Shown here piece after piece: positions 7,801-35,830 of a DNA stretch of 64,000 nt (within the stretch, counting starts at the first letter, position 1; the number at the start of each line of letters is the position of its first letter). The translations under genes were made by a program, and so were the position numbers. The stretch is from contig NZ_JAAOEN010000008.1 of assembly GCF_011320225.1 (NCBI RefSeq), positions 124,001 to 188,000 of the forward strand, given 5' to 3'. This DNA is from Phytoactinopolyspora limicola. Lineage in GTDB: Bacteria; Actinomycetota; Actinomycetes; Jiangellales; Jiangellaceae. The notes under the pieces are model-generated. The model was not told where the DNA came from, did not search any database, and was given only the letters and a program-made list of their open reading frames with translations.

Positions 7801-8079
7801 ATGCTTGAGGTGAAGCTCAAACTCGACCTACACGACGTCTACAACCGCGGCGACGAGATCGACCGCCAGTTGCGGGCCGTCATCGACGAAGCCGTGTCGA
7901 AGCGGATCAAGGTTGTCGAGATCATCCCTGGCAAGGGGTCGGGGCAGCTGAAGAAGCGGGTGCTCCGGTTCCTCCAGCAGAAGGAGATCAAAGAGCTGTA
8001 TCACCGCGTGGAGAAGGACTCTGACAACTTCGGGCGGATCTTCGTCCACTTCAAGTGGTCGCGCGATCGCCGGCGCTGA
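7801..8079 (+). CDS. Smr-domain protein
   Basis: 92 residues from ATG 7801. KLKLDLHDV near the start and VEIIPGKGSGQLKKRVLRFL are the Smr hallmarks (LDLHG-like and HGKGxGxLr-like motifs), and the protein is little more than this domain. Smr domains bind or nick nucleic acid and occur at the C-terminus of MutS2 or alone; the role here is unknown. The frame stays open upstream to ATG 7738, but that extension is unlike the family, and no clear ribosome binding site decides between them. Confidence 0.8.
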   Translation: MLEVKLKLDLHDVYNRGDEIDRQLRAVIDEAVSKRIKVVEIIPGKGSGQLKKRVLRFLQQKEIKELYHRVEKDSDNFGRIFVHFKWSRDRRR

Positions 8080-8130
8080 GTACGTCGTCGTTGGCTCGGG
8101 CGTTCGTGAGGGCACGTTCTCGCGTCGTTA

Positions 8131-8186
8131 CTTGATCATGTGCGAGTTACACCCCCGATGTGGGGAGAAAGTCGCACGTGATCAAG
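8131..8186. terminator. Hairpin downstream of the Smr gene
   Basis: Arms 8131-8145 and 8172-8186 pair over 15 bases with one mismatch (CTTGATCATGTGCGA against TCGCACGTGATCAAG) around a 26-base loop. It lies about 50 bases after the Smr stop and has no T-run. It contains TGATCA, as does the 58-bp palindrome near 21.6 kb, so it could be a dispersed palindromic element instead of a terminator. Confidence 0.5.
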
Positions 8187-8272
8187 GTCGACTGGGCTGC
8201 CCAGGTCAGCTCGCCAAGGTCCTGGCCCACATCACAGAATCTCCGCCTGCGGCCACATCTGCGTAACAAGCA

Positions 8273-8302
8273 TTGACACCGCAACCTACTGGCGAGTAGG
8301 AA
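8273..8302 (+). promoter_or_regulatory. Promoter and TetR-like operator of the ABC importer operon
   Basis: TTGACA (8273-8278) is followed after 18 bases by TAGGAA (8297-8302). The palindrome CCTACTGGCGAGTAGG (8285-8300) lies between and into the -10, which suits a repressor. TACT-N4-AGTA resembles operators of actinobacterial TetR-type regulators of acyl-CoA genes, consistent with the acyl-CoA ligase in the operon (inference). livF starts about 95 bases downstream. Confidence 0.5.
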
Positions 8303-8394
8303 ACCTACACGGCACAGCGGGCGGAGCTAGTCGATCACGTCTAGTGACGCCTGCCGGCGGGTGACAACCGGTAGGGCGACGAAACGGGGGCAGA

Positions 8395-9180
8395 GTGCTC
8401 GCAGTCGAGAATCTCGACGTCGTCTACGAGGACGTCATCCTCGTTCTCAAGAGTGTCACGCTCGAGATTCCCAGCGGCGAAATCGTGGCGTTACTCGGGG
8501 CCAACGGTGCTGGAAAGACGACGGTGTTGCGGGCTATCACCGGCCTGCTCGACATCCACCGCGGCTCGATCACCCGAGGCCGGGTGACCTTGGATGGCAT
8601 GCGCATCGACCACCTCGACGCTCCGGGCACGGTCGCGGCCGGCATCGGGCAGGTCATGGAGGGCCGGCGGATCCTCGCCGAACTCACCGTCGAGGAGAAC
8701 CTGCGCATCGGAGCGCACACGGCCGCACGGGACGCCGTCGGTGCCGGCCTCGAGCGGGTGTACGGACTGTTTCCGGTGCTGGCCCAGCGGCGCACCCAGG
8801 TGGCGGGTTACCTCTCCGGCGGCGAGCAACAGATGCTCGCCATCGGGCGCGCGCTCATGGCTCAACCCCGGTACCTGCTGCTCGACGAGCCGAGCCTCGG
8901 TCTCGCTCCGCGGATGGTGCAACAGATCAAAGAGCTGATCGTGGAGATCAACGAGCAGGGCACCGCTGTGCTGCTGGTGGAGCAGAACGCCGCCATGGCG
9001 CTGTCGGTGGCCCGCCACGGCTATGTGCTGGAAACGGGCAAGATCGTCATGGATAAACCAGCCGAGGAGCTGCGAGCCGACGACGACATCCGCGAGTTCT
9101 ACCTCGGCCTCGCCGACGAAGGGGCGGTCTCGTTCCGCGACATCAAACACTACAAGCGCCGGAAGAGGTGGTTGTCGTGA
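8395..9180 (+). CDS. livF: Branched-chain-type ABC importer, ATPase LivF
   Basis: 261 residues. Walker A is GANGAGKTT (about residues 34-42), the signature is LSGGEQQM (about 141-148) and Walker B is LLLDEPSLGL, followed by VLLVEQNAAMAL. LivF-type ATPases power import of branched-chain amino acids, amides or small aromatic or carboxylic compounds together with LivG. GTG start. The C-terminus extends past the usual end (FRDIKHYKRRKRWLS). First gene of a six-gene operon; its stop overlaps the start of livG. Confidence 0.92.
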   Translation: MLAVENLDVVYEDVILVLKSVTLEIPSGEIVALLGANGAGKTTVLRAITGLLDIHRGSITRGRVTLDGMRIDHLDAPGTVAAGIGQVMEGRRILAELTVEENLRIGAHTAARDAVGAGLERVYGLFPVLAQRRTQVAGYLSGGEQQMLAIGRALMAQPRYLLLDEPSLGLAPRMVQQIKELIVEINEQGTAVLLVEQNAAMALSVARHGYVLETGKIVMDKPAEELRADDDIREFYLGLADEGAVSFRDIKHYKRRKRWLS

Positions 9181-9950
9181 CTGATGCTCCATTGCTCGAG
9201 GTCGCTGACCTGACGCTGCGCTTCGGCGGCATGACCGCGATCGATCAGGTGAGCTTCAGTGTCGATCCGGGCGAGTTGTTCGCCGTGATCGGCCCGAACG
9301 GCGCGGGCAAAACCTCGATCTTCAACTGCCTGTCCGGGGTGTACCGGCCACAGGCCGGCAGCATGAGGTTCGGCGGCGAGGAGCTGCGGGGGCGGCGGCC
9401 CGATAACATCGCCCGGCTCGGGATGGCCCGGATGTTCCAGAACATCGAGCTGTTCGAGAACCTGACGGTGCTGGAGAACCTCATGCTCGGCCGGCATCAG
9501 CACCTGCGGTACGGCACGTTGTCCGCCCTCGTGTATGCCGGCCGGGCCAAACGCTCCGAGATCGAGAACCGCCGCGTCGTCGAGGACATCATCGACTTCC
9601 TGGAGATCGAGGCGATCCGGCGCAGCCTGGTCGGGATGTTGCCGTACGGGCTGAAGAAGCGGGTCGAGCTGGGCCGGGCGCTGGCGATGGCGCCGCGCCT
9701 GCTGCTCCTCGACGAGCCCGTGGCCGGCATGAACGTGGAGGAGACCGAGGACATGGCCCGGTTCATCCTCGACATCCGCACCGAGCTCGGCGTCACCATG
9801 ATCATGGTCGAGCACGACATGGGGCTGGTGATGGACATCGCCGATCGAGTACTGGTTCTCGACTTCGGGCAGCACATTGCCCTGGGGCCGCCGGGACAGG
9901 TGCAGAGCGACCCCGCGGTCATCAAGGCGTACCTGGGCGAGGCGTCATGA
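9177..9950 (+). CDS. livG: Branched-chain-type ABC importer, ATPase LivG
   Basis: 257 residues from GTG 9177, chosen because GGAAGAGG lies 8 bases upstream and the start overlaps the livF stop by 4 bases (GTGA). Walker A is GPNGAGKTS and Walker B is LLLLDEPVAGM. The signature region reads LPYGLKKRVELGRAL, the relaxed form usual for LivG. ARMFQNIELFENLTVLENLM is also typical. Partner of LivF at the inner face of the membrane. The 3' end overlaps the ligase ATG. Confidence 0.92.
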   Translation: MTDAPLLEVADLTLRFGGMTAIDQVSFSVDPGELFAVIGPNGAGKTSIFNCLSGVYRPQAGSMRFGGEELRGRRPDNIARLGMARMFQNIELFENLTVLENLMLGRHQHLRYGTLSALVYAGRAKRSEIENRRVVEDIIDFLEIEAIRRSLVGMLPYGLKKRVELGRALAMAPRLLLLDEPVAGMNVEETEDMARFILDIRTELGVTMIMVEHDMGLVMDIADRVLVLDFGQHIALGPPGQVQSDPAVIKAYLGEAS

Positions 9951-11866
9951 ACACCACGGCGGCCACCACCGGCGAGACCTGGCGCACCATCCCGCACCGG
10001 ATCCGCACGTGGGCGGACCGCCAGCCGGACCGGGTCTGCCTGCGGGAGAAGCGGTTCGGCATCTGGCAAGACATCACCTGGCGGGAGTATTGGGACAACG
10101 CACAACTCGTCGCCCACGGGCTGGCGGCGCTCGGCGTCGGTGCGGGCGACCGGGTCGGGATCCACTCCGAGAACCGCCCCGAATGGCTCTACACCGACGT
10201 CGGCTGTGTGGCGATCCGGGCGATCAGCGTCGGGCTGTACTCCACCAACCCACCAGCCGAGGTGGCCTACCTGCTGCGCGACTCCGGTGCCCGGGTCCTG
10301 ATCGCCGAAGATCAGGAGCAGGTCGACAAAGCGCTAGCGGTGGAAGATCAGTGTCCCGACCTGGAATGGATCGTCTACCTGGAGCCGCGCGGGGTGCGCG
10401 AATACACCAACCCGAAGCTGCTGCATTGGCCGGACTTCATCGAACGTGGCCGGGCACATCAAGCTGAGCACCCGACGCTGCTCGACGACGCCACGGCGGC
10501 GGCCGGCCCGGACGACGTCGTCACCCTCATCTACACGTCGGGCACCACGGGGCCACCCAAAGGGGCCATGCTCACCGTCCGCAACGTCTCGTTCGCCACC
10601 GACGTGCTCGGCGGCGGACCAGGGCTGTACGACCCGGCACCGCGCGAGAGCGACGTGACGTTGTCCTACCTGCCGCTGTGTCACGTCGTCGAGCGCGCGG
10701 CGACGATCTGGGTGAACGCGGCGGCCGGGACGACGGTGCACTTCGCCGAGTCGATCGACACCGTGGTGGCCAACCTGCGTGAGGTCCAGCCGACCCTCTT
10801 CTTCGGAGTCCCGCGCATCTGGGAGAAGATCCACGCCGGGATCCAGATCCGGATGAGTTCGGCGTCGCGGGTGAAACGGCTGGCCTATCGGGTGGGCCGG
10901 GCGCTGGCCGACCGGATCGCCGACGACATCGTGCGGCACGAGGGGCGCCGCTCGGTGCGCGCCAAACTGCTGTATGCGCTGGGATATCCGCTGCTGTTCC
11001 GCGCCCTGCGGGACCGGATCGGGCTGCGCAAGGTTCGCGCCTGCGGTTCGGGTGCGGCGCCGATCGCGCCCGAGGTGTTGCGGTTCTTCTTCGGCATCGG
11101 TGTTGTCATCCGGGAGGCGTACGGCATGACGGAGAACTCCGCCGTCGCCACCGGCAACCGGGGTGCGCGGGTGAAACTCGGCACCGTCGGCGAAGCCCAT
11201 GAGGGAACCGAGGTACGCCTCGACGACGACACCGGGGAGATCATGACCCGGCATCCGGGCAACTTCGCCGGCTACTGGAACAAACCCGACAAGACCGTCG
11301 AGGTGCTCGACGCCGACGGGTGGTTGCGCACCGGCGACGTCGGTGAATGGGTCGACGGCACCCATCTGAAGATCGTCGACCGGATCAAAGACGTGATCAT
11401 CACCGCGGGTGGCAAGAACATCGCCCCGTCGGAGATCGAGAACGCGCTCAAGACGTCGCCGTTCATCAAGGAGGCGGTGGTGGTGGGCGATCGCCAGCCG
11501 TACCTCACCGCGCTGATCGGTATCGAGCTGGAAACGGTCGGAAACTGGGCCCAGCGGCGCCGCCTCACGTACACCACGTATCGGGACCTGATCGAGAAAC
11601 GGGAGGTCCTCGAGCTCATCCAGGGTGTGATCAAACAGGTCAACGCCGACTTCGCCCGGGTGGAGCAGGTCCGTAAGTTCCGCACCTTCCCCAAAGAACT
11701 CGATCACGACGACGGGGAGTTGACCGCGACGCAGAAGGTGAAGCGGGCGACATTGCACGACCGGTTCGGCGACCTGATCGACGACATGTACGGCGGCACC
11801 ACCAAGTTCGCCGGCGGCGACCTCGCTCAGGTGCACACTCCGGCCAGCTCGGAGGTGCCGGCATGA
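9947..11866 (+). CDS. Long-chain acyl-CoA synthetase-type AMP-forming ligase
   Basis: 639 residues. The AMP-binding signature is YTSGTTGPPKGAML (about residue 190). The later motifs are AYGMTENS, GWLRTGDVGEW and DRIKDVIITAGGKNIAPSEIE with a downstream catalytic lysine region. The enzyme activates a carboxylate with ATP and CoA; the length and motifs fit FadD15/FACL-type long-chain ligases. It sits inside the importer operon, with 4-base overlaps on both sides, so the importer probably brings in a carboxylic acid that is at once converted to its CoA thioester (inference). The chain type is not known. Confidence 0.9.
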   Translation: MNTTAATTGETWRTIPHRIRTWADRQPDRVCLREKRFGIWQDITWREYWDNAQLVAHGLAALGVGAGDRVGIHSENRPEWLYTDVGCVAIRAISVGLYSTNPPAEVAYLLRDSGARVLIAEDQEQVDKALAVEDQCPDLEWIVYLEPRGVREYTNPKLLHWPDFIERGRAHQAEHPTLLDDATAAAGPDDVVTLIYTSGTTGPPKGAMLTVRNVSFATDVLGGGPGLYDPAPRESDVTLSYLPLCHVVERAATIWVNAAAGTTVHFAESIDTVVANLREVQPTLFFGVPRIWEKIHAGIQIRMSSASRVKRLAYRVGRALADRIADDIVRHEGRRSVRAKLLYALGYPLLFRALRDRIGLRKVRACGSGAAPIAPEVLRFFFGIGVVIREAYGMTENSAVATGNRGARVKLGTVGEAHEGTEVRLDDDTGEIMTRHPGNFAGYWNKPDKTVEVLDADGWLRTGDVGEWVDGTHLKIVDRIKDVIITAGGKNIAPSEIENALKTSPFIKEAVVVGDRQPYLTALIGIELETVGNWAQRRRLTYTTYRDLIEKREVLELIQGVIKQVNADFARVEQVRKFRTFPKELDHDDGELTATQKVKRATLHDRFGDLIDDMYGGTTKFAGGDLAQVHTPASSEVPA

Positions 11867-29683: not shown

Positions 29684-30787
29684 TTAGCCGGTGCCGGTGA
29701 CACCACCGGCAGGACCGGAGCTCGACTCTCGAACCCGCAGCTCAGGCTGGAGCCGGATGCTGTCCGGGCGGTGGCCGTCCAGTACCTCCATCAGCATGTC
29801 GACGCCGCGGGAGCCGACCTCGTGCATGGGGGAGTGCACGCTGGTCAGCGGGATGGTGAGTTGGGCGGCGATGGGGACGTCGTTGAATCCGACGACGGCG
29901 ACGTGGTGGCCCGGTACCAGTGAGTGCTGGCGTAGCACCCCCATGGCGCCGATGGCGGCGAAGTCGCTGACCGCGAACATGGCGGTGGGGCGAGGCGTCG
30001 ACTGAAGGAGTCGCTCGGCGCCGAGGGCCCCGCTGGCCGCGTCGAAACCGGTGGCTACGGCCTCGGGTTCGGGGAGACCGTGTTCGGTGAAGGTGTCGCG
30101 GAAGCCCCGGGTGCGGTCGACGCCGTTGCTGGCGTACGGCAGCCCAGCGAGCACCCCGGCGTGGACGTGGCCGAGCGAGATGAGGTGCTCCGCGGCGAGC
30201 CGGCCGCCGGCGTAGTCGTCACACGTCACCGATGGATACCCCTCGGCGTACCGGTTGACCAGCACGAACGGCACGCCGCGGGTGGCGAATTCGGCGACGA
30301 AGGCGCCGTCGACATGCGCGTCGCCGAAGATGACCGCGTCGACCCTCCGGGCCAGCAGCATGTCGACGCTGGCCTTGCGTGCGTCGGCGTCGTCCCACGA
30401 GTTGGTGACCATGGTCTGGAGCCCGTGCCGGAGTGCGGCGTGTTCGATGCCCTCGTAGATGGTGGCCAGCACTTGGTCGGCTAGGCGGGCCATGACGACG
30501 CCGACGAGTTGTGACCGTTGCATACGTAGCCCGGCGGCGCTGGCGTCGGGGACGTAGCCGACCTCGCAGGCGGCTTGCCGGATCCGTTCCGCGGTGGCGG
30601 CCGAGGCGGACCGCGCGTTGGTGCTGGTGCCGTTGAGGACGCGGGACACGGTGGAGACGTGGAGACCGGTCAGCTCGGCGACGGTTTTGAGGGTGGCACG
30701 ACGCATGGGCCGGCGTCGGGCAGCGCCGGCGCCGGTCGGACGATCATCGGCGCGCGCCTCGTGCACACGTATCTCCTCATCGAGCAT
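29684..30787 (-). CDS. LacI-family transcriptional regulator
   Basis: About 367 residues from ATG 30787. The helix-turn-helix is at residues 30-52 (TLKTVAELTGLHVSTVSRVLNG), seen as TVAELTGLHVSTVSRVLNG. A periplasmic-binding-like sensor follows (QLVGVVMARLADQVLATIYE, HVAVVGFNDVPIA). The roughly 28 residues before the HTH are unusual for LacI, so ATG 30706 is an alternative start. It is divergent from the membrane protein/amidohydrolase/amidase genes and probably represses them and itself through CAAACGTT sites between the two starts (inference). Confidence 0.92.
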   Translation of the reverse strand: MLDEEIRVHEARADDRPTGAGAARRRPMRRATLKTVAELTGLHVSTVSRVLNGTSTNARSASAATAERIRQAACEVGYVPDASAAGLRMQRSQLVGVVMARLADQVLATIYEGIEHAALRHGLQTMVTNSWDDADARKASVDMLLARRVDAVIFGDAHVDGAFVAEFATRGVPFVLVNRYAEGYPSVTCDDYAGGRLAAEHLISLGHVHAGVLAGLPYASNGVDRTRGFRDTFTEHGLPEPEAVATGFDAASGALGAERLLQSTPRPTAMFAVSDFAAIGAMGVLRQHSLVPGHHVAVVGFNDVPIAAQLTIPLTSVHSPMHEVGSRGVDMLMEVLDGHRPDSIRLQPELRVRESSSGPAGGVTGTG

Positions 30788-30797
30788 CGTCAAGGTC

Positions 30798-30853
30798 TTG
30801 ACAGGGCCAAATTAGCATGGTCGGATTGCGCAAACGTTATAGCCAAACGTTTG
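30798..30853 (+). promoter_or_regulatory. Promoter with paired CAAACGTT operator sites
   Basis: TTGACA (30798-30803), a 17-base spacer and TCGGAT (30821-30826) are followed by CAAACGTT at 30831 and the perfect palindrome CAAACGTTTG at 30844-30853, 13 bases apart. These sit at the expected transcription start, a good position for the LacI-type repressor encoded alongside. A ribosome binding site GGGAGG and ATG 30878 follow. Confidence 0.6.
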
Positions 30854-30877
30854 CACACTGTCGTGCCGGGAGGTCTG

Positions 30878-32167
30878 ATGTCGCTCGCCACACGCACCGC
30901 AGCAAGCCGCCGCACCCGCCTAGCCCCCATCCTGGGGATCGTCTGCGTCGCCGCGGTGGCGTTGAACCTCGGCATGAAAGCCCTGGAGGACAACCTCGGC
31001 CGGGACCCTGCCGCCGGTGCCGAGCCAGCCACCGGAGGCTGGCGCGACTGGCTGGAATGGATCGCCGGAGACACCACCGAGGCCCAGTTCTACAAGGTGG
31101 CCGCCGCCGGCGTCGCGATGATCGCGCTCGCCGCCGTCGCCCACGTGCTGGCCCGGCGCGGTTCACGCTGGCGGGGCTTCGACATCTCGTACGGCTCCGG
31201 CCTATGGCCGTGGGTGTTCGCCGCGGCCACCGGCGGGTTGCTGTTGTCCAACCTGATCTGGGGCTGGAGCCTGTCCGGTGGCGATTGGCAGCCGACGTTC
31301 GTGCCGTTCGTCTCCGTGCCACCGGCACTCGTGCTCATCTATGGGCCGGGCTGGCGGGTCGCCGCCACGGCCGCGACGCTGGGCGCGTTGTTGACCACCC
31401 CCGTCTCCCTCGTCGTCGTCAATCACATCTGTATCCCGCTCGACCTGCCCGGCGTCATCGGCAACGTCACGGGGATGTGGGCGGGCGCGCTGATCGCCTT
31501 CGCCATCGCCCGGTACTTGCCGTGGATGCCCTCACTGACCCGCACCGACGAACGCCAGAAGAGCTCCGACCCGGGCGAGCAAGCGGGCACCGACGCGGGC
31601 ACCGACCCGGGCACCGACGCGGCGCGCGAGGACGCCGAACCGGAGAGCCGACCGAACACCGAGGCCGTACCCGCAGCACCCACCGCGGTGCCGCGCAGCT
31701 GGCTGCCTCGTCGGGCCCTCGCCGACTTCACCGAAGCCCAGTTCTACGGCAACGAGTGGGCCTCGGCCGGACTACTCGTCGCCATCCTGGCCGCCTGGAT
31801 GGTGAACGTGCTCGGCCCGGCCTACGGCACCGGGGTCTTCCCCGACCTGCTCACCGCACAAATCCTCGCCGCCGCCTTCGGGGTGTGGTTCCATGCCGAC
31901 CGGTGGGCCGAACACGGCTGGTACCCGACGTTCGTCCCGGTGGTGTCGCTGGCCCCGGCCGCGGTGATCGACCTGGGCGGCGGCTGGGGAGTGGTCATCC
32001 TGGCCGCGCTCGGCGGCGCGCTGGTCGGACCCCCGCTGGCCCGGACCATCGCGTTGCGCCTGCCCGGTGACTTCCATCCGTTCATCGGCAGCGTGATGTC
32101 GATGACTGTTATCACCTTGATCGGAGTGCCGTTGCTCCGGCTGCTCGACTCGGCGGGGCTGGTGTGA
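30878..32167 (+). CDS. Internally duplicated membrane protein
   Basis: 429 residues from ATG 30878 (GGGAGG upstream). Two homologous halves are visible. TTEAQFYKVA and DWQPTFVPFVSVPPALVLIYG in the first (about 67-175) correspond to FTEAQFYGNE and GWYPTFVPVVSLAPAAVIDLG in the second (about 288-385). Each half has about four membrane helices. A charged linker with repeated GTD units (about 235-280) joins them. An inverted or parallel duplication of this kind is common in transporters, but I recognise no family. It lies first in a LacI-controlled operon with an amidohydrolase and an amidase, so uptake or sensing of an amide is possible (inference). Confidence 0.7.
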   Translation: MSLATRTAASRRTRLAPILGIVCVAAVALNLGMKALEDNLGRDPAAGAEPATGGWRDWLEWIAGDTTEAQFYKVAAAGVAMIALAAVAHVLARRGSRWRGFDISYGSGLWPWVFAAATGGLLLSNLIWGWSLSGGDWQPTFVPFVSVPPALVLIYGPGWRVAATAATLGALLTTPVSLVVVNHICIPLDLPGVIGNVTGMWAGALIAFAIARYLPWMPSLTRTDERQKSSDPGEQAGTDAGTDPGTDAAREDAEPESRPNTEAVPAAPTAVPRSWLPRRALADFTEAQFYGNEWASAGLLVAILAAWMVNVLGPAYGTGVFPDLLTAQILAAAFGVWFHADRWAEHGWYPTFVPVVSLAPAAVIDLGGGWGVVILAALGGALVGPPLARTIALRLPGDFHPFIGSVMSMTVITLIGVPLLRLLDSAGLV

Positions 32168-32214
32168 AGACCAGCTCAGGAACAGGCTCGCAGAAAGGCC
32201 AAGGCTTGACTGAC

Positions 32215-33840
32215 ATGACAGAAGCACAGGTACCGCGGATCGTGCGCGCCCGGCGGATCATCACGATGACCGACGAGCAGCCGGAGGCGCTGGTGATGCT
32301 CGGTGAGCGGATCGTCGCCACCGGTGCTGCGGCCGACCTGGCCGGGCGGTTCCCCGGTGCCGAACGGATCGACGTCGGGCCGGCCGTCGTCGTTCCGGGT
32401 CTGAACGACGCACACGCTCATCCGTGCCTGTGCGCCGACGGTGGGCTGTACGTGGACCTCGGCCCGGACAAGGTGACCGATGCCGGTCAGGTGCGCGACG
32501 CCCTGGCGGCCCGGGCCGCACAGACCCCGCCGGGGGAGTGGGTGGTGGGACACAACTTCGACGTATCGCGGACCGGCGACGGGGCGACCGTGGACCGTGA
32601 CCTGCTGGATCAGGTGTCCACCGAGCATCCGGTCCTGATCATCCACTACTCGTACCACGGAGCCGTGGCCAACTCGGCCGCCCTCGCCGCCGCCGGCTAC
32701 GACGCGTCCACCCCCGACCCGACGGGCGGGGAACTGGTGCGCGACGCCGCCGGGCAGCCCACCGGGGTTCTCTACGAGCGGGCCTGGACCCAGGGCTACC
32801 TCGGCCACGGGAACCGGCCCGGGTTGTTGCCGTCGGCGTCCATCGAGGCCCGGGTGGCGTCGCTGGCGCGGATGCTGGGCCGGATGAACGCCGCCGGACT
32901 CACGTCGGTGTGCGACGCCCTGGTACACCCGGCGCACTGGGAGCTGTACCAGGCCGCACGGGGCGCCGGCGCCTTGACCGCGCGGATCGGGATGCTGCTC
33001 TGGTACGAGTTCTTCGACCCGGCGGTGCAGCTGGGGCTCTCGTCGGGGTTCGGCGACCCGTGGCTGCGTTTCACCGGCGTGAAGATGATGGCCGACGGTG
33101 CCGTCTCCGGCGGGACCTGCCTGTGCAGCCGCCCCTACCAGGGCACCCACGGCGAGACCACCGGCATCCAGGTGATGACCGACGACGAACTCCGCGACGC
33201 GATCCACCTGGTGCACCGGGCCGGCAGCCGGCTGGCCGTCCACGCCAACGGCGACCTCGCCATCACCAAGGTGCTCGATGCCCTGGAGGCCGCGCAGGCC
33301 GAGACACCCGCCCGGCCCGGTCAGGTGCACCGCATCGAACACTGCTCCGACGTCGACGATCACCTCATCGAGCGGATCCGCGGGCTCGGGGTGATACCAG
33401 TGCCGTTCGGCGCATTCGTGCACTACCACGGGCACAACCTGGTAGCCCACTACGGAACCGAACGGGCCAGACGGCTGCTGCCGCACCGCCGGCTCCGGGA
33501 CGCCGGGGTCACCGTCGCGGGGTCCTCCGACTACCCGTGCGGCCCGCTTGAGCCGCTGCTGGCGCTGCGTTCGATGACCACCCGGCGCACCCACGACGGC
33601 ACCGTACTCGGCGCTGACCAGCGGCTCACCCCTCTGGAGGCGCTAGAGGTGTACACCGTCGGCTCGGCCGCCGCCTCCGGGGAGGACGGCATCAAAGGCC
33701 GCCTCGCCCCGGGATTCCTCGCCGACTTCACCGTGCTCGACGACGACCCGCTGGCCGTCCCGCTCGACGAACTGTCCGCCATCCCGGTCCGCGCGACGTG
33801 GGTGGGCGGGCGGGAGGTCTGGGCCGCATCCACCACGTGA
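32215..33840 (+). CDS. YtcJ-like metal-dependent amidohydrolase
   Basis: 541 residues from ATG 32215, with AAGG 10 bases upstream; a GTG at 32164 overlapping the previous stop is possible. VVVPGLNDAHAHPCL carries the HxH metal motif. VKMMADGAVSGGTC, RLAVHANGDLAI and HRIEHCSDVDD are typical of the YtcJ/AepA branch. GSSDYPCGPLEPL near the end carries the conserved Asp. These enzymes hydrolyse amide or related bonds; natural substrates are mostly unknown. Located between the membrane protein and an amidase, and likely co-regulated. Confidence 0.88.
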   Translation: MTEAQVPRIVRARRIITMTDEQPEALVMLGERIVATGAAADLAGRFPGAERIDVGPAVVVPGLNDAHAHPCLCADGGLYVDLGPDKVTDAGQVRDALAARAAQTPPGEWVVGHNFDVSRTGDGATVDRDLLDQVSTEHPVLIIHYSYHGAVANSAALAAAGYDASTPDPTGGELVRDAAGQPTGVLYERAWTQGYLGHGNRPGLLPSASIEARVASLARMLGRMNAAGLTSVCDALVHPAHWELYQAARGAGALTARIGMLLWYEFFDPAVQLGLSSGFGDPWLRFTGVKMMADGAVSGGTCLCSRPYQGTHGETTGIQVMTDDELRDAIHLVHRAGSRLAVHANGDLAITKVLDALEAAQAETPARPGQVHRIEHCSDVDDHLIERIRGLGVIPVPFGAFVHYHGHNLVAHYGTERARRLLPHRRLRDAGVTVAGSSDYPCGPLEPLLALRSMTTRRTHDGTVLGADQRLTPLEALEVYTVGSAAASGEDGIKGRLAPGFLADFTVLDDDPLAVPLDELSAIPVRATWVGGREVWAASTT

Positions 33841-33869
33841 TCCGAATCCACCCGACGACGGGAGTCACC

Positions 33870-35243
33870 ATGTCCAACCAGCAGTCTGACCACCGGCCCG
33901 CACCATCGGCCGACCCGCTGGACCTGACCATCGAACACCTACGCCCACTGCTCGACCACGGCGAGATCTCGCCAGTGGCGCTCACCGAGGCCGCGATCCA
34001 GCGGATCGACGCGGGCAACGAGGAGTTGTTCGCCTTCGCCGACGTCTACCGCGACACCGCCCTCGACCGGGCCCGGGCGGCGGAGGACCGGCTGGCGACC
34101 GGGGCGCCGGTGAGCCCACTCGACGGGGTTCCGGTGGCGGTCAAAAGCCTGATCGACGTCGCCGGGCGGCGTTGTGAGGCCGGTTCGCGGGTGCTGGAGG
34201 GGCACACCGCGGTACGCGACGCGGCTGTCGTCAACGCCCTCGAGCGGGCCGGAGCGATCATCGTCGGCGCCACCACCATGGACGAGTTCGCCCTGACCAC
34301 GGTGGGCCCGGCGCGTAGCCCGATCGATCCACGACGCACCGCCGGCGGCTCCAGCGGTGGGTCCGGTGCGGCGGTGCGGGCCGGGATGTGCTTCGCGGCG
34401 CTCGGCACCGACACCGGTGGCAGCATCCGCGTCCCGGCCACCTGTTGTGGTGTGGTCGGCCTCAAACCCACGTACGGCCTGCTGCCCCTGGAGGGTGTGG
34501 TGCCACTGGCGTGGTCGCTGGACCACGTCGGCCCGCTGGCCCGCACCGTCGGCGACGTGCGGGTGATGTTCGACGTGCTTCTGGCGGGTGCGGCCGGCGG
34601 GACCGCTGCGGCGCCGTCGGCGGGTACCGGCCTGGCCGGGCGGACGATCGCGGTCCCCGACGACGAATACCTGGCTGTCCTCGCGCCATCGATCGCCGAG
34701 CAGTTCGCCGCGACGTTACAGGCGCTGCGGGATGCCGGCGCCGAGCTGCGCACCGTCGAACTGCCGGCTCAGGACGGCGTCAAAGCCGTACATTGGCCAG
34801 TGTTGTCCGGGGAGATGGCGGCCTACCACCGGCGCCGTTTCGGCCAGGCGGAGGGGCGATATGCGCCGCCGCTACGAGACGGCCTGACCGCGGGCGACAC
34901 GGTCAGCAAAGAAGAGTACGTGGCCGCGCAGCGGCAGCGGCCGGCGATCCGGGCCCACCTGGACGGCATTCTTGCCGGCGTCGACGCGATCGCCCTGCCC
35001 ACGATGGCCATCGAGCCGCCGCTGGTTGGGCAGGACACCGTCGACCTGGCCGGGCAGCCCGAAGACGCCACCGCGGCCATGGTGCGGCTCACGTCGCTGG
35101 CCAACCACACCGGCCATCCGGCGGTGTCGGTGCCACCGGGCACCACCTCGGCGGAGCGGATGTTCGGAGTCCAGCTGATCGGGCGCTACTACGACGAGCA
35201 CCACCTGTTGGACGTGGCGGGCGCGGTGGAAGCTCTACGTTAA
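33870..35243 (+). CDS. Amidase-signature hydrolase
   Basis: 457 residues from ATG 33870. The Ser-cisSer-Lys triad is visible: Lys in VPVAVKSLIDV, then TAGGSSGGSGAAV, then GTDTGGSIRVPA with the nucleophilic serine. Family members cleave linear amides, carbamates or Gln-tRNA; the lack of GatB/GatC nearby argues against tRNA amidation. Together with the YtcJ-like enzyme it could form a two-step amide degradation route (inference). A dispersed repeat lies just after the stop. Confidence 0.9.
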   Translation: MSNQQSDHRPAPSADPLDLTIEHLRPLLDHGEISPVALTEAAIQRIDAGNEELFAFADVYRDTALDRARAAEDRLATGAPVSPLDGVPVAVKSLIDVAGRRCEAGSRVLEGHTAVRDAAVVNALERAGAIIVGATTMDEFALTTVGPARSPIDPRRTAGGSSGGSGAAVRAGMCFAALGTDTGGSIRVPATCCGVVGLKPTYGLLPLEGVVPLAWSLDHVGPLARTVGDVRVMFDVLLAGAAGGTAAAPSAGTGLAGRTIAVPDDEYLAVLAPSIAEQFAATLQALRDAGAELRTVELPAQDGVKAVHWPVLSGEMAAYHRRRFGQAEGRYAPPLRDGLTAGDTVSKEEYVAAQRQRPAIRAHLDGILAGVDAIALPTMAIEPPLVGQDTVDLAGQPEDATAAMVRLTSLANHTGHPAVSVPPGTTSAERMFGVQLIGRYYDEHHLLDVAGAVEALR

Positions 35244-35254
35244 GCATCGAGGCC

Positions 35255-35341
35255 GTGGCACGCTGAAGTGCTCCACAGAACGGGCAAATAGGGCACGTTT
35301 GCGACACTTCAGCGTGCCAGGCACGACACTTCAGCGTGCCA
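35255..35341. repeat. Dispersed TGGCACG repeat, copy 3 (reversed)
   Basis: Read on the minus strand this has the same plan as the other two copies. Tandem CACTTCAGCGTGCCA units lie at 35305-35319 and 35327-35341 (22-base period), with one inverted TGGCACGCTGAAGTG at 35256-35270. It lies between the amidase stop and a decayed acetyltransferase gene. Confidence 0.88.
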
Positions 35342-35347
35342 GGCACA

Positions 35348-35830
35348 TCACGTGGCCGGAGCGGCGGCTTCGAGGTCCGCGACGCTGCCCGACATGATGG
35401 TGCCAAGGTGCGCTGTGATGTGCGCCATAGGCCAGTCCCACCAGGTCAACGCCAGCAATCGAGCCACGTCATCGTCGTCGTGTCGGGTGCGGATGAGGCG
35501 GGCCGGGGTGCCGCCGACGATCCCGTAGTCGGAGACGTCCGCGGTGACGACGGAACCGGCGGCGATGATGGCGCCATGACCGACTCGTACACCCGGCAGG
35601 ATCATGCCGTTGTCGTGGGGAAGGGAAAGGTGGACGGCCCGTCCATCCGATGGTTGGTGCCGTTCATGCTGAACCGCGCCCCCGTCCCCAGGGCGCGGAA
35701 TCTGCCGATGATCAGTTTCTCCGGCCCATAGTGGTAGAGGACGTTGCGGGTCTCGAACGCGGTCGCGTCGGCGGGGACAAACATGGTGGGGATCCTCACC
35801 GGGCATAGCGGCACCGCCGGCGACGATCAC
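35348..35830 (-). pseudogene. Decayed Vat/CatB-type xenobiotic acetyltransferase
   Basis: Two frames together recall a hexapeptide-repeat acetyltransferase of the streptogramin/chloramphenicol type. The upstream frame (35814 down to about 35610) has KLIIGRFRALGTGARFSMNG and NHRMDGPSTFPF. The downstream frame (about 35600-35348) has MILPGVRVGHGAIIAAGSVV, YGIVGGTPARLIR and LLALTWWDWP. The usual region between them, which carries the catalytic-site loop and further hexapeptides, is missing, and the frames do not join. The gene is therefore shortened and frameshifted. Confidence 0.8.

Follow-up and report, generated by a model that had tools for sequence, protein, structure and literature searches.

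A membrane protein with a predicted urea transporter-like fold, encoded beside amide hydrolases and a divergent LacI regulator

The gene run and its LacI-type regulator

In the window, the 64,000-nucleotide stretch of DNA analysed here, a forward-strand gene for a 429-residue membrane protein (MP; positions 30878–32167) comes first in a same-strand run, followed after 47 nt by a YtcJ-type amidohydrolase of 541 residues (Amidohydro_3; 32215–33840, forward strand; PF07969, E 1.4e-96) and, 29 nt further on, by an amidase-signature hydrolase of 457 residues (33870–35243, forward strand; PF01425, E 3.5e-91). A LacI-family regulator gene, with Pfam LacI (PF00356) and Peripla_BP_3 (PF13377) matches above cut-off, lies divergent from MP on the reverse strand (29684–30787). 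The amidohydrolase carries NDAHAH at residue 64, which we take to be the metal-site HxH, together with HANGD, IEHCSDV and SSDYP; the amidase displays AVKSLID, AGGSSGGSG and TDTGGSIR, presumably the catalytic Lys-Ser-Ser motifs. Judged by sequence, the regulator and both hydrolases are ordinary members of their families, and look-ups of the partner enzymes in the PDB named their nearest solved relatives and no substrate. The three forward-strand genes are probably co-transcribed. Just 3' of the amidase gene lie a 15-bp inverted arm (35256–35270) and a 22-bp exact tandem pair (35302–35345), adjoined by a reverse-strand ORF (35348–35830) that resembles the C-terminal part of a hexapeptide acetyltransferase and is possibly a remnant.

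The intergenic region contains two operator-like sites on the forward strand, a half-palindromic CAAACGTT (30831–30838) located 13 bp upstream of a palindromic CAAACGTTTG (30844–30853). The count of such sites in the window alone is not significant (one found against 0.65 expected when at most one mismatch is allowed), and a scan of positions 30650–35500 for consensus promoters and terminators returned none. Paired sites of the CAAACGTT/CAAACGTTTG type are nevertheless found exactly 13 bp apart, in the interval between LacI gene and operon, in 14 of the 16 LacI-bearing loci (the window and 15 others), with operator-like sites at other spacing in L022 and L035, and the LacI genes adjoining MP in the 15 other loci are 49–70% identical to that of the window. 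The persistence of the pair and its 13-bp spacing across genera supports LacI as the local regulator, putatively acting through this pair, and LacI may well repress the operon. The original prediction, made from this sequence, had described a membrane protein of 429 residues ahead of two amide-cleaving enzymes and a divergent LacI regulator with tandem sites, and the gene order, the Pfam matches, the reverse-strand LacI gene and the sites at 30831 and 30844 all agree with it.

Predicted fold and inverted halves of the membrane protein

Searches of Pfam and NCBIfam with MP yielded no family match, and no relative was found among PDB sequences, against which an MP profile (hmmsearch) produced only four matches, all attributable to chance. 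In an alignment of 29 members (A1), the best weak Pfam matches were to unrelated families (E 0.003 or worse); none of the 29 matched the Pfam urea transporter (UT) family PF03253 at E 1 or the AmiS/UreI family PF02293, and ammonium transporter family profiles were absent among their matches. Direct comparison with an alignment of 12 UT sequences, using whole- and half-protein profiles with reversed and shuffled controls, did not reach significance either in hhalign (probability 1.4%, E 0.037) or in profile score (22.1, where the best of 20 block-shuffled controls reached 20.6). Because this comparison is not significant, MP is not called a PF03253 member. The weak, non-significant alignment sets E68 of MP opposite the pore-helix glutamine of UTs, whose pore is lined by phenylalanine slots, threonines and a pore-helix Q/E.

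Comparison of predicted structures points to a known fold. For the window MP, an AF2 monomer model built from 31 aligned sequences has a pLDDT of 87.2 and a pTM of 0.87, and in VIA-align it matches 15 UT entries with Z 23.0–24.6 and rmsd 3.0–3.9 over 285–312 residues (e.g., 3k3g: Z 23.4, rmsd 3.0 over 285 residues), against at most 13.9 for Rh/AmtB, 8.9–9.6 for Rnf/Nqr and 5–6 for UlaA. The model of a second, urease-linked MP (L063), 32% identical to the first, has a pLDDT of 84.8 and matches 16 UT entries with Z 22.2–23.8, with Rh/Amt at 14.3 or below. For the window MP, Foldseek fills the first six ranks with UTs, each at probability 1.00 but with an E above 0.001; for the L063 protein the first UT ranks sixth (probability 0.99, E above 0.001), below five matches of probability 0.35 or less. 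MP is thus predicted to have a UT-like fold. The original prediction had placed MP in no known family and had proposed a structural check with AlphaFold: the first claim holds for Pfam and NCBIfam but not for the fold, since the models of the whole protein match that of UTs (Z 22–25).

The protein is built from two related halves. The N-half repeat (residues 55–211; 31040–31510, forward strand) comprises a pore-helix-like segment (55–72) and five helices, and the C-half repeat (residues 275–425; 31700–32152, forward strand) is inverted with respect to it; the TEAQFY motif recurs at residues 67 and 285, and PTFVP at 139 and 350. Profile comparison of the two halves (hhalign) gives E 2.2e-35 with 29% identity over 156 columns, and local half-versus-half scores lie 16–28 SD above shuffles in seven of the eight members tested (z 19.0 for the window MP), the eighth, L046, scoring a z of 3.5 that is not above its best shuffle. 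The earlier description of MP as two copies of one unit is hence borne out. Both halves are found in full-length relatives, and no single-unit form appears among the relatives retrieved by MP similarity. Between the halves, a variable linker of low pLDDT (residues 212–274; 31511–31699, forward strand) holds three GTD repeats (237–247, at 237, 241 and 245). The GTD-repeat linker was thus correctly noted, but it is not a conserved element, and the repeat was rejected as a functional element because the linker varies across the alignment.

The distribution of positive charges reveals how the halves are oriented. The mean number of lysines and arginines in equivalent loops of the N and C halves is 2.90 and 0.06, 0.03 and 2.16, and 0.16 and 0.90 (31 rows), and this swap between equivalent loops means that the halves are oppositely oriented: they must be inverted, not parallel. 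UT halves likewise lie in opposite orientation. The charge swap is independent of the fold match of the model, although the loop borders were taken from the AF2 model. These observations bear on whether the UT match might be a modelling artefact and MP an unrelated membrane protein with another role, such as envelope anchoring. Such a reading would accord with the lack of significance in the MP–UT sequence comparison and with a fold known from models alone, but two confident models of members only 32% identical agree with each other and the loop charges independently demand inverted halves, making an artefact very unlikely.

Helix 142–155 is probably a short membrane crossing. Counting it as such, the layout would place the N-terminus inside, followed by an extra transmembrane helix (residues 11–37; 30908–30988, forward strand), two successive sets of one pore-type helix and five crossings, and a cytoplasmic linker. 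The extra helix, seen as a helix in the AF2 model, falls mostly outside the UT structural alignments, which begin at residues 35–53. Each UT subunit comprises 10 transmembrane helices plus two pore helices (PMC10541013). The wider superfold, which MP is predicted to share with Amt/Rh (Z 12–14) and NqrB/RnfD (Z ~8–10), has been reused for sodium translocation in the latter, and PMC10643135 describes NqrB as resembling urea and ammonium transporters. Reuse of this kind (NqrB matches at Z ~9), together with the added N-terminal helix and the long cytoplasmic linker, could be read as indicating an energised transporter or a substrate sensor or scaffold instead of a passive channel; this is unlikely, given that passive UTs score far higher in fold and that the linker is unconserved.

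Relatives of the membrane protein and their hydrolase neighbours

Relatives of MP occur in the Actinomycetota, the Bacillota, one alphaproteobacterial plasmid and one archaeal metagenome-assembled genome (MAG). A scan of genome contigs identified 21 loci, in taxa including Actinomadura, Streptomyces, Actinoplanes, Prauserella, Rubrobacter, Paenactinomyces, Erysipelotrichaceae and a Thermoproteota archaeal MAG. The gene is rare in whole-genome samples, which overlap in that some genomes recur: it is present in 4 of 198 relatives, counting credible matches, in 6 of 396 genomes of the phylum, in 7 of 348 and 2 of 295 in the Bacillota-side samples, and in 1 of 300 in the sample around the archaeal MAG. 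Among 72,556 plasmid records it appears in six, five of them annotating it as a "hypothetical protein" and the sixth carrying no annotation. Six matches with E between 7e-4 and 0.009 (L005–L010) were treated as chance and excluded from the counts; L056, L057 and L073 are either fragmentary or weak matches, L058 was excluded because it repeats the L032 record, and the duplicates L041, L042, L043 and L047–L050 were not considered separate members. The MP tree excludes L033, which is truncated by a contig end, and L034, whose MP is split in frame. In the latter locus (Actinomadura syzygii, 7977–11384), which retains the YtcJ-type gene and the amidase, MP and the amidase are both split between frames, through either decay or assembly error. 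A search for UT genes matched none of 118 relatives, with no match in any control genome either, and 3 of 159 Bacillota-side genomes. No paper describing the MP family was found in a literature search conducted mostly outside subscription journals and preprints.

A gene for an amide- or urea-hydrolysing enzyme adjoins MP or sits one gene off in 33 of the 37 tree members. Members were retrieved by MP similarity alone, so their neighbours were not selected for, and chance hydrolase neighbours should be rare, given that the home genome (6.59 Mb) encodes only 6 amidases and 7 carbon-nitrogen hydrolases. Since the simple script used for gene calling misplaced some frames, partners were re-checked by tblastn and Pfam. 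They belong to eight families: amidase (PF01425), carbon-nitrogen hydrolase (PF00795), asparaginase (PF00710), formamidase/acetamidase (PF03069), YtcJ-type (PF07969), dihydroorotase-like (PF01979), AAT Ntn hydrolase (PF03417) and urease. In two loci the PF01979 partner is joined by an M20 peptidase together with a PucR regulator. No recognised amide hydrolase was found near MP in the remaining four loci (L024, L029, L040 and L055, the last also listed as L055/L069), and in L024 and L029 an alpha/beta hydrolase stands in its place. In L063, MP is followed after 59 bp by ureA, ureB and ureC, and then by ureE- and ureF-like genes; UTs are found at comparable positions in two urease loci on plasmids. 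In the MP tree, L063 groups with a dihydroorotase/M20-linked member, and next with formamidase-linked ones. The partner enzyme thus changes while MP remains in place.

Two recurrent companions of these clusters were also observed. A small tautomerase-like gene lies 3' of the amidase in clusters combining CN-hydrolase, MP and amidase (L036, 10362–10757; L059, 5242–5634; L060, ~9392–9778). The dihydroorotase-like partners (L026, 9352–10725; L030, 6242–7600; L065, 5306–6664; L067, 4149–5501) constitute a subfamily with 49–59% identity across Rubrobacter-type, archaeal and Bacillota members, which is found beside MP wherever it has been seen; its L026 protein, the only one scanned against NCBIfam, falls under every cut-off.

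A candidate channel for urea-like amides

Taken together, the predicted UT fold and the hydrolase context lead us to a reading to which we assign a probability of roughly 0.7: MP is a channel of the UT fold that admits small urea-like amides or ureides and thereby supplies LacI-controlled cytoplasmic hydrolases. In this model, such compounds would cross the membrane through MP and, once in the cytoplasm, would be split for nitrogen by the YtcJ-type amidohydrolase and the amidase encoded alongside it; a LacI repressor sitting on the tandem CAAACGTT sites would keep the operon off until a substrate or breakdown product appears. Transport by MP, its direction and its substrate are all deduced here from fold and gene context. 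A substrate range of this kind would have a counterpart in UT-B, which is also permeable to formamide, acetamide, acrylamide and methylurea according to two sources (PMC5650669; PMC12839047). The amide uptake-and-hydrolysis system originally proposed for this locus thus gains support from the predicted urea-channel fold and from the linkage to hydrolases in 33 of 37 members, with transport and substrate retaining the status of probable attributes.

The main rival reading turns on the fact that the partner enzymes have in common not only a substrate class but also a product, which in most of them is ammonia: MP could be a channel of the UT/Amt superfold mainly for the exit or equilibration of ammonia, and not for amide entry. 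Rh/Amt proteins are indeed the next fold class after UTs (Z 12–14), and UTs themselves pass ammonia, as stated in PMC12171576. On the other hand, UTs score about 9 Z units above Rh/Amt in both MP models, and several MP partners are dihydroorotase-like or YtcJ-type enzymes, for which ammonia release is not required. Furthermore, Amt pores are known for their twin histidines, whereas H400 provides the sole nearly invariant histidine column of MP (alignment A2). An ammonia channel is hence a rather unlikely explanation, and the entry of urea-like amides through MP remains the preferred one.

The wider proposition is that MP founds a separate family of UT-fold channels for organic amides and ureides generally, distributed over bacteria and archaea, paired in the course of evolution with eight or more unrelated hydrolase families, urease included, and unannotated in all the records analysed here; we regard its chances as slightly better than even. 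Much work has gone into amide hydrolases, which are in wide use, but the route by which their substrates enter cells has, to our knowledge, seldom been established beyond AmiS/UreI and ABC importers. If the proposition is correct, the MP family would account for substrate entry in many operons composed of a "hypothetical protein" and an amidase, and would offer natural UT-fold pores with differing substrates in which to ask what sets urea selectivity.

Comparison with known systems delimits the family on several sides. MP resembles UTs (UT/SLC14/Yut, PF03253) in its predicted fold (Z 22–25), its inverted two-half build and its pore-type helices, and in that one MP locus adjoins urease genes, as UTs do in other loci; it differs in the lack of significant sequence similarity, in the extra N-terminal helix and long cytoplasmic linker, and in its usual partners, which are amidases and not urease. 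From Amt/Rh and NqrB/RnfD it is set apart by a clearly lower fold match than to UTs and by different partners. With AmiS/UreI (PF02293) it shares a genomic role, that of a membrane partner of amidases or urease, but the AmiS/UreI protein of L037 has 217 residues, against 429 for MP, and MP has no PF02293 match. PMC2947987 places a Rhodococcus equi amidase next to a UreI-like transporter, an arrangement that parallels the MP locus in joining an uptake protein to an amide hydrolase and differs from it in that MP comes from an unnamed family and is associated with LacI control and a YtcJ-type partner. On Prescottella and Rhodococcus plasmids, AmiS/UreI and MP genes lie within about 2–4 kb of each other, in what appears to be an amide-nitrogen island (L037, 9160–17092; L038, 10673–17128) in which MP and an amidase are followed by AmiS/UreI, a second amidase, a glutamine-synthetase-like gene and an acetate-CoA ligase.
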